Position numbers and translations under genes: made by a program. From Schlesneria sp. DSM 10557 (GTDB taxonomy: Bacteria; Planctomycetota; Planctomycetia; Planctomycetales; Planctomycetaceae), in assembly GCF_041860085.1 (NCBI RefSeq), contig NZ_CP124747.1, positions 248,001-312,000 on the forward strand: a stretch of DNA of 64,000 nt, written 5' to 3'. The notes below the pieces were generated by a model. That model ran no database searches. It was given only the letters and a program-made list of their open reading frames with translations, and had not been told where the DNA came from. Positions 51,762 to 62,211 of the stretch are shown here, one piece after another. How positions within the stretch are numbered: position 1 is the stretch's first letter; each line of letters starts with the position of its first letter.

Positions 51762-51834
51762 GGGGGATTAGCTCAGTTGGGAGAGCGCTTGCATGGCATG
51801 CAAGAGGTCAGCGGTTCGACCCCGCTATCCTCCA
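51762..51834 (+). tRNA. tRNA-Ala (anticodon GGC)
   Basis: 73 bases fold as a complete tRNA: acceptor GGGGGAT with ATCCTCC, D-loop AGCTCAGTTGGGAGAGC, anticodon stem CTTGC/GCAAG with loop ATGGCAT (anticodon GGC) and T-arm GCGGTTCGACCCCGC. CCA is not encoded. Its 3' half is the left attachment site of the integrated element. Confidence 0.97.
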
Positions 51835-51836
51835 CT
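51793..51836 (+). repeat. attL: 44-bp attachment repeat in tRNA-Ala
   Basis: From the anticodon loop (51793) to two bases past the discriminator (51836), this is identical to 62168-62211. Flanking bases differ (C versus T before, T versus G after). Tyrosine integrases commonly use tRNA anticodon-loop sites. Confidence 0.95.
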
Positions 51837-51919
51837 TGTTCTAAAGTAAGTCTGAATCGGGATTTGTGATTACCGGACCATGTGGTCCGTGCGGCTTCAA
51901 ACGAATGGGAATAGGTGCA

Positions 51920-53038
51920 ATGGTGCACCAAAACCCAGGAGAGTTGAGAGTGCCGCGTCCACGAAACTCGATTCCAAAATTCTCGATTGATCGCAACGGC
52001 CGCGCCTTCACAAAGGTTGACGGCCGTTTTGTTTCTTTGGGCCGTGGTGATAACCCGGAGTCGAGGCGGCGATACGCTGTCCTGCTCACCGAGCACACGG
52101 GCCTTGCAGTGACGGCTTCGACAGCGACTGAGAAGCGGGCTTCTGTCACGGTCAATGAACTGCTGCTCAGGTTCGTCACAGAAGAACTTCCGCGATACTC
52201 CACATCAGAGCAATACTGTCAGAAGACCGTAGTTCGTCTGCTGCGGCAGTTGTTCGGTGAGACCCTTGTGTCCGAGTTTGGGCCACTGCGTCTGCGAGTG
52301 GTCCGCAAGGCAATGGTAGACGGGGATCCCACACAAAAGGACCAAAACGGCAAGCCATGCCCCAGAAAGCCGTGGTCCCGTGATACCGTCAACCGTAACG
52401 TGAAACGAATTCAAGCTATCTTCCGCTGGGGGGTGAGCTGGGAGATCGTTCCCGAAACCGTTGCTGCTTCGCTGGGGACGGTTCGGATCCTCGCGGCGGG
52501 TGAGACCGCAGCGGCAGAATCGACGCCACGGCGATCCGTTTCCAAGTCGGATATCGAAGCCGTCCGCAGGCAGTTGACGCAGCGTAATCGGGATATCCTC
52601 GATCTGCTGGGGCTCACTGGAGCGAGGCCGGGGGAATTGCTTTCGGTGCGTGCCAAAGACCTCAATCAGGATGGCGAGGTATGGCGGTTCGATCTGATCA
52701 AACACAAGACCGCGCACAAGGGCAAGTCAAGGACGTTGTTCTTCAACAGTAAGGCTCAAGCGATCCTGCAGCGGTACATCACCGATGATCCAGAAGCGAG
52801 ATTGTTCCCGATTCGCCGGGATAGCTTCGGTCACGCCGTGCTGCGAGCATGCACGAGAGCAGGGATCGAACCGTTCGTCCCGCACGAGATCCGGCACACG
52901 ACCGCCACGAAGCTCGTTGATGAAGTCGGTATAGAGTCCGCACAGCGATTGCTGGGGCACTCTGATCAAGCCATGACCCAGCACTACAGCAGGACCGCCG
53001 ATCGGCAAGCTGTGGAAGCAGTGAAGACACTCGAATGA
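51920..53038 (+). CDS. Tyrosine integrase (site-specific recombinase)
   Basis: A 372-residue phage-type integrase. It has a short N-terminal arm-binding part (RPRNSIPKFSIDRNGRAFTK), a core-binding helical domain, and a catalytic domain with Arg236 (TGARPGELLS), Lys263 or nearby (KHKTAHKGK), His322 and Arg325 (HEIRHTTAT), His347 (LLGHSD) and Tyr356 (HYSRT). It begins 84 bases after attL and reads into the element. ATG 51920 was chosen; an in-frame ATG at 51905 and a GTG at 51866 are alternatives. Confidence 0.93.
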   Translation: MVHQNPGELRVPRPRNSIPKFSIDRNGRAFTKVDGRFVSLGRGDNPESRRRYAVLLTEHTGLAVTASTATEKRASVTVNELLLRFVTEELPRYSTSEQYCQKTVVRLLRQLFGETLVSEFGPLRLRVVRKAMVDGDPTQKDQNGKPCPRKPWSRDTVNRNVKRIQAIFRWGVSWEIVPETVAASLGTVRILAAGETAAAESTPRRSVSKSDIEAVRRQLTQRNRDILDLLGLTGARPGELLSVRAKDLNQDGEVWRFDLIKHKTAHKGKSRTLFFNSKAQAILQRYITDDPEARLFPIRRDSFGHAVLRACTRAGIEPFVPHEIRHTTATKLVDEVGIESAQRLLGHSDQAMTQHYSRTADRQAVEAVKTLE

Positions 53039-53150
53039 ATTGATACGATGCGTCCAACGCGGGATAGGTTAGCTCCCGACAAGCGAGATTCCTGAACTCG
53101 TTTCCCGCGTTCCTTTCATTTCAGGCAACGGCTTTTCAGGGGCCGGAACG

Positions 53151-53837
53151 ATGGCGGATGATTCCGATATAAGCCAGGCAAAGAGATTAGCAGAGAGTTT
53201 AAGCCGTCTATACTATTGGATCTCGGCGCCAGCAAACATTCACAGACGCACGATAATGTGTCGTGATTTCAGTCTGGCATCCTACGAGGAATTGCACATT
53301 CTTCCGCCAGACAGGCCGTACTTTGCGCCGGCTCTTCGTGCGATTGCCAGTTACCGTTGGATACATTCATTCGCGACGAATGAAGCTGAATTTGCATTCG
53401 AATCGACTCTCCCGATCGACATTAAATCTAAGGTCTCAGTTGCGTTGTCGATGGTGGTGGAGGCGATGACTGTCTATGACGATGTTTTTAATTGGCTGTT
53501 CCATCTGAAACTAAGTCCACAAGAAAGGAGACTTAAAACTGTCAAATTCTTAAGGCGAGGACTTCTCAATGTCTCAAATTCCTGCGGCACGAACGTGTTG
53601 GAGGCAATCGCACTAACAGAACTCTACGTGAAATCCTTCCGAAAAGTCTCTGACAGTGCGAGCCCTGAATTGCCCGAGGGAATCAGGGAGGAGTTGGTCG
53701 ACGAGGTGCGATGGGCAATTAAAACTCTTGGACGGGATGCCAAACGCGGAAGAATCCAAGTTTATTGCGCACGAAATAGGCAGAACGTACTAATGGTTCT
53801 GGACTACCTAAAGGCGAAGGGCGAGTATGACAACTAA
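53151..53837 (+). CDS. Unknown cargo protein of the element
   Basis: A 228-residue protein of no recognised family, with a GGGGCCGG site before its ATG. It is mostly helical (KSKVSVALSMVVEAMTVYDD, NVLEAIALTELYVKSFRKV). Its codon use looks more A/T-rich than neighbouring genes. A separate gene right behind the integrase, in a position where satellites and prophages often keep cargo such as defence or host-interference genes, is a candidate for such a role; this is inference. Confidence 0.7.
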   Translation: MADDSDISQAKRLAESLSRLYYWISAPANIHRRTIMCRDFSLASYEELHILPPDRPYFAPALRAIASYRWIHSFATNEAEFAFESTLPIDIKSKVSVALSMVVEAMTVYDDVFNWLFHLKLSPQERRLKTVKFLRRGLLNVSNSCGTNVLEAIALTELYVKSFRKVSDSASPELPEGIREELVDEVRWAIKTLGRDAKRGRIQVYCARNRQNVLMVLDYLKAKGEYDN

Positions 53838-53893
53838 CGTTCCGGGTTCCGGAACCGTTCCCGCAAGCCAAAGGGGCTACTGATAATTTGCAA

Positions 53894-53953
53894 CCTCGCG
53901 TAATCTTGTGTGCGTCGCTCAATCGAGAGCGAATTACACTAAGTTACGCGAGG
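53894..53953 (+). promoter_or_regulatory. 60-bp nested hairpin covering the SD of the DUF1580-like gene
   Basis: CCTCGCGTAA (53894-53903) pairs perfectly with TTACGCGAGG (53944-53953). Inside lie CTTGTGT/ACACTAAG and TCGCTC/GAGCGA. TTTTCTT follows and the next gene starts at 53961. The 3' arm contains GCGAGG, its likely ribosome-binding site. The structure could terminate transcription from upstream and also hide the SD. Confidence 0.65.
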
Positions 53954-53960
53954 TTTTCTT

Positions 53961-61142: not shown

Positions 61143-61796
61143 ATGTCCAGTCTCTCAACGTACATGCATCAGGTATTGGCTCGCTCCCCAAGCAAACGAG
61201 TGGACAAGCAGGTTGACAAGTATGTCCACGATCGCAAGGCAATGATTGCCGGTCGTAAGAAGGATGAGAAACGCAAGCAGCGCAAGGCGGCGTTGCTTGC
61301 TGAGAATCCCGCTTGTGCCCACTGCGGACGAACGCTCACGGCTGTTGCTGGCAAGGAAGACTCAGCACACCTGATGATTGATCGGCTGTCGTGCTTCGAG
61401 CACACCCGCATCGTCAAAGCGTATGCGTTATTCGACTCTCCCACATCCCGTATCTCCTACTCGCCACCGTTGCCGGGCCACGAATCGGATCGCCCACGGC
61501 CTCCAAGTCGAGACGTCCAGAAGAAAGAGTTGCTGAAGGCGAACCCGTATTGCCTCGTCTGCCGCACGAGGCTCGGCTACGGAGAAACCTTTCTGGCGGC
61601 TCCGCACCTTTGCAAAGGTGAACTCTACTGCCCTGATTGCATCAACATTGTGCGGCAAGGTCGCGATCGTCGGGAACCGGAAAAGGTACTGAAGGAGATC
61701 GAGGAAATTCGTCTGTCACTGACTGTTCAGGGACGGAAGTATCTCGAAGAGATCGCATCGCGAAATACGAACAAGTTCCCTAACAAGCCACGTTAA
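61143..61796 (+). CDS. Double zinc-binding, HNH-like protein
   Basis: 217 residues from ATG 61143 (AAAGGA upstream). Two similar Cys units: LLAENPACAHCGRTL...HLMIDRLSC and LLKANPYCLVCRTRL...LCKGELYCPDC. The spacing recalls HNH nucleases, but the catalytic His-Asn pair is not clear, so it may be degenerate or structural. It has a basic N-terminal part. HNH proteins near terminases can assist packaging. Confidence 0.65.
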   Translation: MSSLSTYMHQVLARSPSKRVDKQVDKYVHDRKAMIAGRKKDEKRKQRKAALLAENPACAHCGRTLTAVAGKEDSAHLMIDRLSCFEHTRIVKAYALFDSPTSRISYSPPLPGHESDRPRPPSRDVQKKELLKANPYCLVCRTRLGYGETFLAAPHLCKGELYCPDCINIVRQGRDRREPEKVLKEIEEIRLSLTVQGRKYLEEIASRNTNKFPNKPR

Positions 61797-61809
61797 CGGA
61801 GATGCCAGC

Positions 61810-61965
61810 ATGAAGACCCAGCAGGAAGTTCAAGACATGCTCGTGATACAGATCGCACGACATGACGCACTGAAGAAGATACTGGCACTATTACAATCTG
61901 TCGCTGACTGTGAGGGGAACAACGAAGGCGTTGAATGGATCTTAGATCAACTCAACGACGAGTGA
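61810..61965 (+). CDS. Small 51-residue protein
   Basis: ATG 61810 has GGAG 9 bases upstream. The 51-residue product (QQEVQDMLVIQIARHDALKK, then VEWILDQLNDE) is acidic and helical. It follows the HNH-like gene by 13 bases and is ended by a terminator 15 bases later, which supports a real gene. The function is unknown. Confidence 0.65.
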   Translation: MKTQQEVQDMLVIQIARHDALKKILALLQSVADCEGNNEGVEWILDQLNDE

Positions 61966-61980
61966 CGGCCTGACGACGTG

Positions 61981-62010
61981 ACCCCGCTGGCGATGCTGGC
62001 GGGGTTCTTT
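61981..62010 (+). terminator. Terminator at the right end of the element's genes
   Basis: ACCCCGC (61981-61987) pairs with GCGGGGT (61999-62005), followed by TCTTT. It closes the last transcription unit of the element. Confidence 0.7.
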
Positions 62011-62019
62011 CGTTCTAAT

Positions 62020-62041
62020 GCACCGAAACTGCACCGAAACT
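62020..62041 (+). repeat. 11-bp direct repeats near attR (integrase arm-site candidates)
   Basis: GCACCGAAACT occurs at 62020-62030 and 62031-62041, with a related GCACCGATTC at 62051. Short direct repeats 130-150 bases from the core are typical of integrase arm sites. Confidence 0.5.
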
Positions 62042-62167
62042 CCCCTGAAAGCACCGATTCACTGCACTGATTCGCCTGAATCGCAAAGTTTGCAATGCGA
62101 CGAAATCCCCGGTATACTCTATAAAACAAGGCCCATTCGTTGCGCCGAGTCTCGTTCATTCGTCTCT

Positions 62168-62211
62168 ATGGCATGCAAGAGGTCAGCGGTTCGACCCCGC
62201 TATCCTCCACT
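62168..62211 (+). repeat. attR: 44-bp attachment repeat
   Basis: Exact copy of 51793-51836: the 3' half of tRNA-Ala without the 5' half. It marks the right junction. The tRNA's likely native terminator follows at once. Confidence 0.95.

Follow-up and report, generated by a model that had tools for sequence, protein, structure and literature searches.

We describe an integrated element in Schlesneria sp. DSM 10557 (Planctomycetota) that is, judging from its sequence, probably a PICI-like phage satellite, one that would supply the shell and the choice of DNA and borrow the rest. The window analyzed is a 64,000-nt stretch of contig NZ_CP124747.1 (contig positions 248,001 to 312,000, forward strand), and the element, here called element A, occupies ~10.4 kb of it (window positions 51793 to 62211). 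Exact 44-bp att repeats bound the element, as the original prediction had stated; the left copy sits in the 3' end of tRNA-Ala(GGC) (51762 to 51835) and overshoots it by one base. Across a 13-kb stretch no exact repeat is longer than these 44 bp, and 50 shuffles of two-base blocks produced none above 16. Accepted plus-strand genes cover ~77% of element A, and ~1.1 kb (59999 to 61082) contains repeats and no convincing gene. The features, in window coordinates, are these:

51793-51836, plus strand: attL, 44-bp exact repeat, 3' end of tRNA-Ala(GGC)
51866-53038, plus strand: tyrosine integrase, 390 aa (PF00589 3.7e-21; phrog_1 2e-40)
53151-53837, plus strand: 228-aa protein, possible cargo (no Pfam match; best PHROG 0.17; no PADLOC match)
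53961-54278, plus strand: small DUF1580 protein, candidate regulator (PF07618 3.5e-10)
54563-55468, plus strand: replication initiator, DnaD/lambda-O-like (phrog_2514 9e-23, phrog_345 2.8e-17; no Pfam match)
54926-54983, plus strand: 11-bp repeats within the initiator gene, candidate origin
55850-56257, plus strand: probable small terminase (TerS), P27-like, 135 aa (phrog_83 2.9e-6; below Pfam cut-offs)
56285-56728, plus strand: 147-aa core protein, common to element B (96.6% identity, dN/dS 0.145; 33% relative in G592)
56583-56963, plus strand: 126-aa protein, common to B (84.9% identity, dN/dS 0.567; phrog_15916 0.0077)
56923-57153, plus strand: 76-aa HTH protein, excisionase-like (phrog_66 4.3e-7; 89.5% identity to B)
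57140-58501, plus strand: HK97-type major capsid protein, 453 aa (PF05065 4.9e-32; phrog_10 6.4e-23)
58694-59089, plus strand: 131-aa protein, common to B, C, D and E (identity 95-97% in B, C and D, 87% in E)
59094-59564, plus strand: 156-aa Cys-rich protein, common to B-E (DUF6171-like, below cut-off)
59501-59998, plus strand: 165-aa protein (39% identity to a 145-aa protein of elements C and D)
60015-60034, no strand: palindrome TTGTCACC-N4-GGTGACAA
60167-60856, no strand: 76-nt direct repeats and a 27-nt inverted repeat, without a convincing gene
61083-61796, plus strand: 237-aa Cys-rich protein, weakly HNH-like, common to B (91% over 222 codons; phrog_589 0.0035)
61810-61965, plus strand: 51-aa ORF (no PHROG match)
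62168-62211, plus strand: attR, 44-bp exact repeat

The integrase and HK97-fold capsid of the original prediction are borne out by these profile matches, and its in-gene replication origin corresponds to the 11-bp repeats, a candidate origin. The points in favor of a satellite are the tRNA integration, the perfect att repeats, the element's own integrase and initiator, the capsid, and the probable TerS. A helper phage would induce element A, which would excise and then replicate from the in-gene repeats. The satellite capsid would form a small shell around the helper portal, either by itself or together with helper capsid protein (the mixed option is modelled on Ccm of SaPIbov5); the satellite TerS would recruit the helper large terminase (TerL) to satellite DNA, and helper protease and tail would complete the particle. 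Element A would thus provide the specifiers of DNA and head size, with the rest borrowed.

PHROGs and Pfam searches found no TerL, portal, or protease in element A, nor was a lysis gene found, and connectors had no PHROG match among the 20 ORFs submitted (TerS with two starts). The only stop-to-stop frames of at least 300 aa are the integrase, the initiator, and the capsid, which leaves no room for a TerL or portal of usual size. The lack of TerL, portal, protease, and tail module claimed beforehand agrees with these results, and profile searches of the unassigned genes likewise brought up neither portal nor TerL. A home-made TerL profile overlooked the TerLs at L198 8801-10297, which PHROGs recovers at 2.7e-136, and at L275 14318-15757; the absence therefore rests on PHROGs, Pfam, and every frame of at least 300 aa. 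For the relatives introduced below, PHROGs input comprised 10 ORFs of element B (leaving out its capsid, 131-, 156-, 126-, and 76-aa genes), nine of L086, five of L179, five of L182, nine of L180, and five of L183. For L179, L182, L180, and L183 this input covers only part of the short ORFs, and codon-position GC partly guided the choice in L180 and L183, which are GC-rich. In L086, a 389-aa ORF that PHROGs does not match is taken as the initiator by eye only.

Element A probably encodes a TerS. We placed its start at 55850 because a homologue opens with the same MGGxGSG; the homologue in G001 matches at 46% and has the C-terminal GLTP motif in common with it. The P27-type assignment of the original prediction stands on the phrog_83 match and is weaker than was implied, with Terminase_6 and Terminase_4 both under their Pfam cut-offs. 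A search against phage records returned no relative of this TerS, and its predicted structure (pLDDT 68) has no PDB match at E 0.001. We discounted as support the matches of that model to the HK97 small terminase (6z6e and 8pop; E 2.2-2.4, TM 0.45-0.59), which rank under several ribosomal-protein matches. TerS is found in other members of the capsid clade, namely, L182 and L180 (1.6e-14 each), and in contigs L214 (6.4e-7) and L204 (PF05119 2e-27); B, L086, L179, and L183 showed none. That absence counts against the satellite reading, as do the missing capsid of elements C, D, and E, the sub-threshold Pfam match of element A's TerS, and the empty single-protein scans of viral contigs.

The same genome holds related elements B to E. 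Element B, at tRNA-Arg, has a capsid block with 94.8% DNA identity to that of A and carries an integrase unlike A's, plus a DnaB/AAA helicase. The capsid proteins of A and B are 98.2% identical with a dN/dS of 0.157, and the element A capsid is under purifying selection. Elements C, D, and E have genes in common with A and lack the capsid, so not every member of the local family needs it. Each of the five elements has the pair of 131- and 156-aa genes, and the 131-aa genes are 87 to 97% identical to that of A. In the prophage-like element of the genus, relatives of the 156-aa protein adjoin the structural cassette as its last gene (L083 19400-19963, L092 3438-3953, and L093 3125-3676).

In a tree of 50 capsid proteins whose bootstrap is not fully settled, element A falls in a clade of 13 (support, 100/99) separate from 37 phage-like capsids. 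Seven att-bounded members were examined: they span 8.7 to 10.4 kb, occupy tRNA sites in five phylum-level host groups, and in 7/7 neither TerL nor portal was found. The best five of 19 capsid loci on genome contigs are all tRNA-integrated, 8.7 to 9.7 kb long, and equipped with an integrase, with no TerL or portal found; one of these, L181, and L086/G298 are a single contig. A tape-measure protein is present in L179 (1.8e-54), L204, and L205. Two clade members resemble capsid-forming PICIs (cf-PICIs), namely, L095, which has TerL and portal, and L203, on a contig that starts within TerL, and in both the clade protein is presumably the shell. One of the two joins at an unresolved basal fork of the capsid group, and the other is nested inside it.

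The original prediction of a planctomycete satellite proved too narrow. The reduced design is seen in Planctomycetota and also, by the titles of the MAGs, in Deltaproteobacteria, Dehalococcoidia, Gammaproteobacteria, and Acidobacteria, which are among the nearest capsid relatives. The same design, with no TerL or portal found, lies at other tRNA sites, in B and in other phyla, so element A is not a unique truncated prophage; these occurrences also uphold the core of the original prediction, a satellite-like element with a capsid and a (probable) TerS but no motor, portal, or tail module. The capsid relatives were recovered by alignment-based searches; the single capsid protein returned no relatives from genome or viral contigs, nor did the 237-, 131-, and 156-aa proteins from viral contigs. 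The AlphaFold model of the capsid was too poor to use (pLDDT 34.8). We tentatively entertain a broader possibility, that a cross-phylum satellite lineage encodes virion specifiers only: TerS to choose the DNA, an old-clade capsid to set head size, and, in part of the lineage, a short tape-measure protein to set tail length. TerL, portal, protease, connectors, tail tube, and baseplate would come from unrelated helpers, and one capsid lineage would then have to suit the portals of many phages.

Several other explanations must be weighed. That element A is a decayed prophage, its motor, portal, and tail lost, is very improbable. The missing genes, the ~1.1 kb without a convincing gene, and the related capsids (~30%) that the genus carries in larger prophage-like loci would fit such decay, but two copies persist with different integrases, different replication modules, and low dN/dS, the att repeats are exact, and TerL and portal are likewise absent from all seven att-bounded clade elements. 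The original prediction had argued against simple decay, and the same observations agree with it. It is possible, if doubtful, that element A descends from a cf-PICI from which TerL, portal, and protease were later lost, so that it relies on a different cf-PICI or on a phage. L095 and L203 within the clade speak for this; the capsid tree leaves the direction unsettled, and the capsid search and a PF04860 portal search of its own genome point to no resident cf-PICI.

Slightly more doubtful is that the capsid is mainly a weapon, entering helper shells at some positions and shrinking or spoiling them, and never forms a shell of its own. Ccm is described as acting so and as unable to form capsids by itself (PMC8569155), and protease and portal were not found in element A. 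Against this, the element A protein has 453 aa, with ~150 aa ahead of the capsid domain, compared with a Ccm of 355 aa from which 87 N-terminal aa are removed (PMC8569155), and its clade includes L095 and L203. We consider it unlikely that the 131/156-aa pair, rather than the capsid, is the hijacking module of elements A to E and modifies the tail end of a phage or GTA-like particle specific to the genus. The presence of the pair in all five elements and the cassette-end position of the 156-aa relative (L083, L092, L093) speak for it, yet comparing profiles of the 131-aa protein and of the 206-aa prophage protein that adjoins the 156-aa relative gave nothing, and PHROGs recognizes only one of four presumed tail proteins of L092, a minor tail protein. 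On that empty comparison we gave up the idea that the 131-aa protein acts at the tail tip.

The satellite reading has published precedents. SaPIbov5 carries a capsid homologue, Ccm, that sets head size with experimental support, forms only the pentamers of the helper shell, and is 24% identical to the helper capsid, as described in PMC8569155. EcCICFT073 is reported to have an integrase, an HTH (AlpA) regulator, a primase, and capsid and decoration genes, and its gene table annotates neither TerL nor portal; PmCI172 is reported to have a capsid homologue and small heads (PMC6092414). In the account of PMC10690885, cf-PICIs by definition carry TerL, portal, protease, and connectors and are called widely distributed across Bacteria, and the Streptomyces satellites Mulch and Flayer have their own capsid, TerS, TerL, portal, scaffold, and adapter. 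Given the wide distribution of cf-PICIs, satellites that bring a capsid may not in themselves be new to these phyla. Nothing on the subject appeared among titles and abstract openings of literature on planctomycete satellites or prophages with a capsid.

Element A, known from sequence alone, resembles EcCICFT073 as described in having integrase, HTH, and capsid and no TerL or portal. The EcCICFT073 capsid and element A's clade lack sequence similarity (hhalign probability, 0.3%), and EcCICFT073 has a primase and no TerS, whereas element A has a DnaD/O-like initiator and a probable TerS. Deleting the EcCICFT073 capsid gene is reported to have left transfer unaffected and interference in place (PMC6092414), which counts against the satellite reading. 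The likeness to PmCI172, a capsid homologue in both, is taken from its description. SaPIbov5, as published, likewise has a satellite capsid homologue and, like element A, no identified protease; its Ccm works with a helper's portal, as is proposed for the element A capsid, and is shorter than that capsid. Element A has a satellite-encoded capsid (clear) and a TerS (probable) in common with cf-PICIs as defined, two cf-PICI-like contigs fall within its capsid clade, and it differs in that TerL, portal, protease, and connectors were not found. Mulch and Flayer, in their published gene content, also encode a capsid; their TerL, portal, scaffold, and adapter set them apart from element A.

PICIs are recognized by a conserved gene order of integrase, replication module, and master regulator, by att sites that prophages never use, by induction and packaging through a helper phage, and by a typical, not strict, size of ~12 to 15 kb, as set out in PMC6092414. 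Element A has an integrase, a DnaD/O-like initiator, and a pair of small proteins (HTH and DUF1580), either a candidate for the master regulator, and the att sites found here lie in tRNA genes; at 10.4 kb it is smaller, as are all seven elements (8.7 to 10.4 kb). PICIs are also defined there as without structural genes, yet the same paper accepts the capsid-bearing EcCICFT073 and PmCI172; element A has a capsid gene. The "distinct strategy" of the original prediction was too strong, SaPIbov5, EcCICFT073, and PmCI172 having come before (PMC8569155, PMC6092414), and we dropped the claim of a new strategy since satellites with a capsid homologue that borrow the rest are already described there. 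The set of TerS and capsid in element A is a variation. The lineage falls between PICIs, with no structural genes, and cf-PICIs, with a full head module, and could for that reason easily be mistaken for a prophage remnant. If the element works as proposed, it opens to experiment the question of what lets a foreign capsid protein fit the portal and motor of another phage.

Among minor observations, PADLOC matched none of ten proteins of elements A to E at 0.01. The "both paralogues" of the original prediction, the 147- and 165-aa proteins, are alike only weakly (24% identity over 108 aa, E 0.015, in a single comparison). The palindrome TTGTCACC-N4-GGTGACAA occurs as one exact copy in each of elements A to E and is absent from the rest of the 7.07-Mb genome.

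Element A, the satellite-like element at window 51793-62211, is a real satellite whose gene content, selection and phylogeny we document here, and judging from its sequence it is probably a functional one; its use of a helper, its packaging and the composition of its shell we infer. The exact 44-bp att repeats that the original prediction had placed around 10.4 kb of sequence are indeed present, and the left copy lies within a tRNA gene. In 50 shuffles of the region, the longest exact repeat was 16 bp, versus 44 bp in the real sequence. The G+C content of A is 0.549, compared with 0.560 in the remaining window.

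Features of element A (window positions; all accepted genes are on the + strand)
51793-62211: element A, 10,419 bp, with the exact 44-bp repeat at both ends
51762-51835: tRNA-Ala(GGC), holding the left 44-bp copy in its 3' part
+ strand, genes in order: integrase, 228-aa unknown protein, DUF1580 protein, DnaD/O-like initiator with internal 11-bp repeats
+ strand, continuing: probable terminase small subunit (TerS), 147-aa, 126-aa and 76-aa (HTH) proteins, capsid
+ strand, continuing: 131-, 156- and 165-aa proteins, then a repeat-bearing stretch without a convincing gene
+ strand, to the end: 237-aa weakly HNH-like protein, 51-aa ORF
60167-60856: 76-nt direct repeats and a 27-nt inverted repeat with copies 543 nt apart, a candidate origin, partition or packaging site

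Just three stop-to-stop frames in A reach at least 300 aa, namely the integrase, the initiator and the capsid, which excludes a terminase large subunit (TerL) or portal of normal size and bears out the predicted absence of both. The prediction of a P27-type TerS and an HK97-fold capsid stands for the capsid, while the TerS is probable only (PHROGs phrog_83, 2.9e-6).

The genome is a single contig (C1) of 7,067,087 bases, and a search of it with the capsid reached three places: A itself, a 98% copy and one relative at 30%. The 98% copy belongs to element B (L018); exact 45-bp repeats, 9,917 bp apart and located in tRNA-Arg(CCT), mark its ends. The two elements have 3,287 bp in common at 94.8%, a stretch running from the 147-aa through the 156-aa gene, plus a second block of 926 bp at 91.9% over the 237-aa gene; the DNA comparison found no similarity over the integrase, initiator or TerS. 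Element B carries its own integrase at the opposite end and a 581-aa DnaB/AAA helicase, and none of the ten B proteins compared with PHROGs was recognized as a TerS. Between the two capsid genes, we count about 24.8 synonymous and 13.2 nonsynonymous changes (dN/dS 0.157); the 147-aa (0.145), 131-aa (0.123) and 237-aa (0.197) genes give similar ratios, selection is looser on the 126-aa (0.567) and 76-aa (0.409) genes, and the 156-aa protein is identical across the 155 codons compared.

An alignment of four capsids, searched against the genome_contigs collection, returned 19 loci, nine of them with TerL and portal nearby. Five others have an integrase, with TerL and portal not found; they hold the five best E-values of the 19, at 37-43% capsid identity. 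Neither TerL, portal nor integrase was detected at the last five (L185, L186, L187, L193 and L194), three of which sit on contigs of at most 7.2 kb; L185 and L186, each about 21 kb long and of Planctomycetota, carry a capsid relative at 32-33% and were negative for the TerL, portal and integrase profiles.

The five integrase-bearing elements, with their tRNA sites and att repeats
L179: Deltaproteobacteria MAG, tRNA-Lys, 50-bp exact
L180: Dehalococcoidia MAG, tRNA-Arg, 48 bp at 94%
L181: same contig as L086, genome G298, tRNA-Leu, 63 bp at 95%
L182: Gammaproteobacteria MAG, tRNA-Val, 50-bp exact
L183: Acidobacteria MAG, tRNA-Val, 54 bp at 96%

With A and B, these make seven att-bounded elements of 8.7-10.4 kb. 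Neither motor nor portal was found in any of the seven, and on sequence grounds A is a local representative of the cross-phylum capsid lineage to which they belong. By reading, every frame of at least 300 aa in the seven either encodes an integrase, an initiator, primase or helicase, a capsid or a tape measure, or overlaps one of these or the TerS gene, mostly in antisense; for the 389-aa ORF of L086, the initiator label was given by eye only. PHROGs recognizes a TerS in L182 (phrog_83, 1.6e-14) and L180 (phrog_1496, 1.6e-14) and detects none in B, L086, L179 or L183. Repeats inside the initiator gene recur in L180 (34 nt), and the L086 ORF has internal 24-nt repeats. L179 encodes a 674-aa tape measure (1.8e-54) and no other recognized tail gene; L086 has a weak tape-measure match (0.0023) beside a tail-completion-like neighbor (4e-6). 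Tape-measure genes of 520-674 aa follow shortly after the satellite capsid gene in L179 (11125-13149) and in the viral contigs L204 (2661-4409) and L205 (3029-4591).

Two alignment scans of the viral_contigs collection, from which the best 80 of 577 and the best 80 of 591 relatives were kept, added further arrangements. L204 begins with a TerS followed by capsid and tape measure; L205 has the same order behind a partial ORF at its start, 49% identical over 61 aa to the L204 TerS; L214 has TerS, capsid and integrase; and in L208 a 560-aa frame directly ahead of the capsid reads as a DnaB-like helicase. TerL and portal were not seen on these four contigs, which are possibly incomplete, so this absence is no proof. 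Two others read as cf-PICI-like (capsid-forming PICI): L095 (10.9 kb), where TerL, portal and integrase accompany a capsid ORF that also matches a protease weakly, and L203, whose sequence opens within TerL and also contains capsid, protease and integrase genes. The L095 ORF (5153-6844) spans 563 aa, the protease match (31 bits) lying ahead of the capsid domain. Our tree of 50 capsid proteins comprised 37 phage- or prophage-like rows selected from the loci, 11 satellite-labeled rows (the labels of L204, L205 and L208 resting on incomplete contigs) and the two cf-PICI-like ones; the latter 13 cluster together with 100/99 support and separately from all 37, with the bootstrap just short of convergence (0.984 versus 0.99). 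Inside this group, whose order the tree fixes in part, the branching is compatible with either gain or loss of TerL and portal.

Of 59 relative genomes, 14 contain a capsid relative, as do 31 of the 392 searched across the phylum; these rates and those in the next sentence include the window's own genome, and among the matches listed outside it, identity is 22-37%. The 237-aa protein is present in 4 of 248 genomes, the 147-aa protein in 2 of 150 and TerS in 3 of 198, and the 156-aa protein matches 43 of 248, mostly in short and partial form. A search of capsid and TerS against planctomycete genomes had been proposed originally; of the six matching phylum genomes whose capsid surroundings we inspected, G298 holds element L086, four (G132, G171, G212, G402) have TerL, portal and protease and one (G235) has portal and protease. 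A profile built from the seven satellite capsids matched 4 of the 17 genomes belonging to G298's class; scores in the three besides G298 (G217, G255, G287) were far lower. Nine of 50,697 phage records match the A capsid (best 35.8%), 42 match that of L182, and 45 of 72,556 plasmid records match that of L179, none of the latter two sets at 60% identity or more. Against the PDB, the clade profile matched capsids of seven distinct sequences, at best with an E of 8.3e-5, the gene transfer agent (GTA) capsid Rcc01687 among them.

Among known satellites, cf-PICIs are defined by capsid, protease, portal, connectors, TerL, TerS and HNH genes (PMC10690885), a full set that A does not have, and their capsids fall into three clades inside the phage capsid tree (PMC11389934); PICI criteria exclude structural genes, and yet EcCICFT073 and PmCI172, both with capsid homologues, were accepted as PICIs (PMC6092414). 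The EcCICFT073 capsid aligns to our clade with an hhalign probability of 0.3% and is thus, by sequence, of a different lineage. The SaPIbov5 capsid homologue Ccm can redirect head size using the helper's portal (PMC8569155). That the A capsid acts likewise, entering helper shells rather than building its own, is a possibility to which we give about one chance in three; low capsid identity to phages does not argue against it, because Ccm itself is just 24% identical to its helper's capsid. Rather less likely is that the 131-/156-aa pair, rather than the capsid, is the hijacking module of A and its four companions in this genome, a reading favored by the 156-aa gene copy of element E, which is open over 142 aa.

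Element E is one of three further elements that relatives of the 156-aa protein led to in the same genome.

Further elements of the window's genome
C (L078/L079): C1:2.93 Mb, tRNA-Leu(TAA), 70-bp repeat at 98.6%
D (L081): C1:5.79 Mb, no clear att repeat found within the 20 kb read
E (L082): C1:0.81 Mb, 25-bp exact repeat, copies 17.1 kb apart

Each has a 156-aa relative and a 131-aa gene (97%, 97% and 87% identical to that of A in C, D and E, respectively), and neither the capsid search of the genome nor reading of the elements found a capsid gene; they are capsid-less elements with modules in common with A and B. The palindrome TTGTCACC-N4-GGTGACAA (window 60015-60034 in A) has five exact copies genome-wide, one each in A, B, C, D and E; one mismatch adds three copies, in D and E only, and a control pattern has zero copies in the genome. 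C and D have 6.3 kb in common at 99.7%. By reading, C, D and E encode two proteins upstream of the 131-aa gene, in the position of A's capsid: one of 294 aa bearing an HExxH-like motif and one of 238 aa that is coiled-coil-like. D and E also carry a pair of genes for proteins of 122 and 198 aa (L081 3713-4699, L082 6149-7135) whose protein sequences are identical between the two elements; the pair looks like recently moved cargo and is possibly a toxin-antitoxin or defense system, with no PADLOC match.

A genus-specific phage or GTA-like element is a candidate helper of A, and no more than a candidate, since a 156-aa relative ends its capsid cassette in L083, L092 and L093 and PHROGs recognizes a minor tail protein in the L092 cassette; the palindrome is absent from it, and its TerL is of another family than PF03354, which has no match in the window's genome. 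That genome's one PF04860 portal adjoins this TerL (phrog_979, 2.7e-136) at C1:3.996 Mb; at 3.817-3.833 Mb lies a capsid cassette with a transposase, which we take to be IS66-like. In the relative G006, a single contig carries TerL (74% identical), portal and capsid, the latter two separated by about 16 kb, so the copy in the window's genome looks rearranged; over the 20 kb of G006 sequence, the integrase profile had no match. The portal was recovered from 8 of the 15 genus genomes, counting the window's; the seven other copies are 76-81% identical and each sit within an open frame of 754-1014 aa, versus 473 aa in the window's genome. About half of the genus thus holds a prophage- or GTA-like system with TerL and portal in one place and capsid and tail-side genes in another (L198 8801-11796 at C1:3.996 Mb and L019/L083 at C1:3.817-3.833 Mb; relatives L275, L092 and L093). 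A 46% relative of A's TerS lies in another genome (L199 9303-10140, G001:C23), with no phage genes recognized by eye around it; the HTH gene behind this relative looks like a second TerS.
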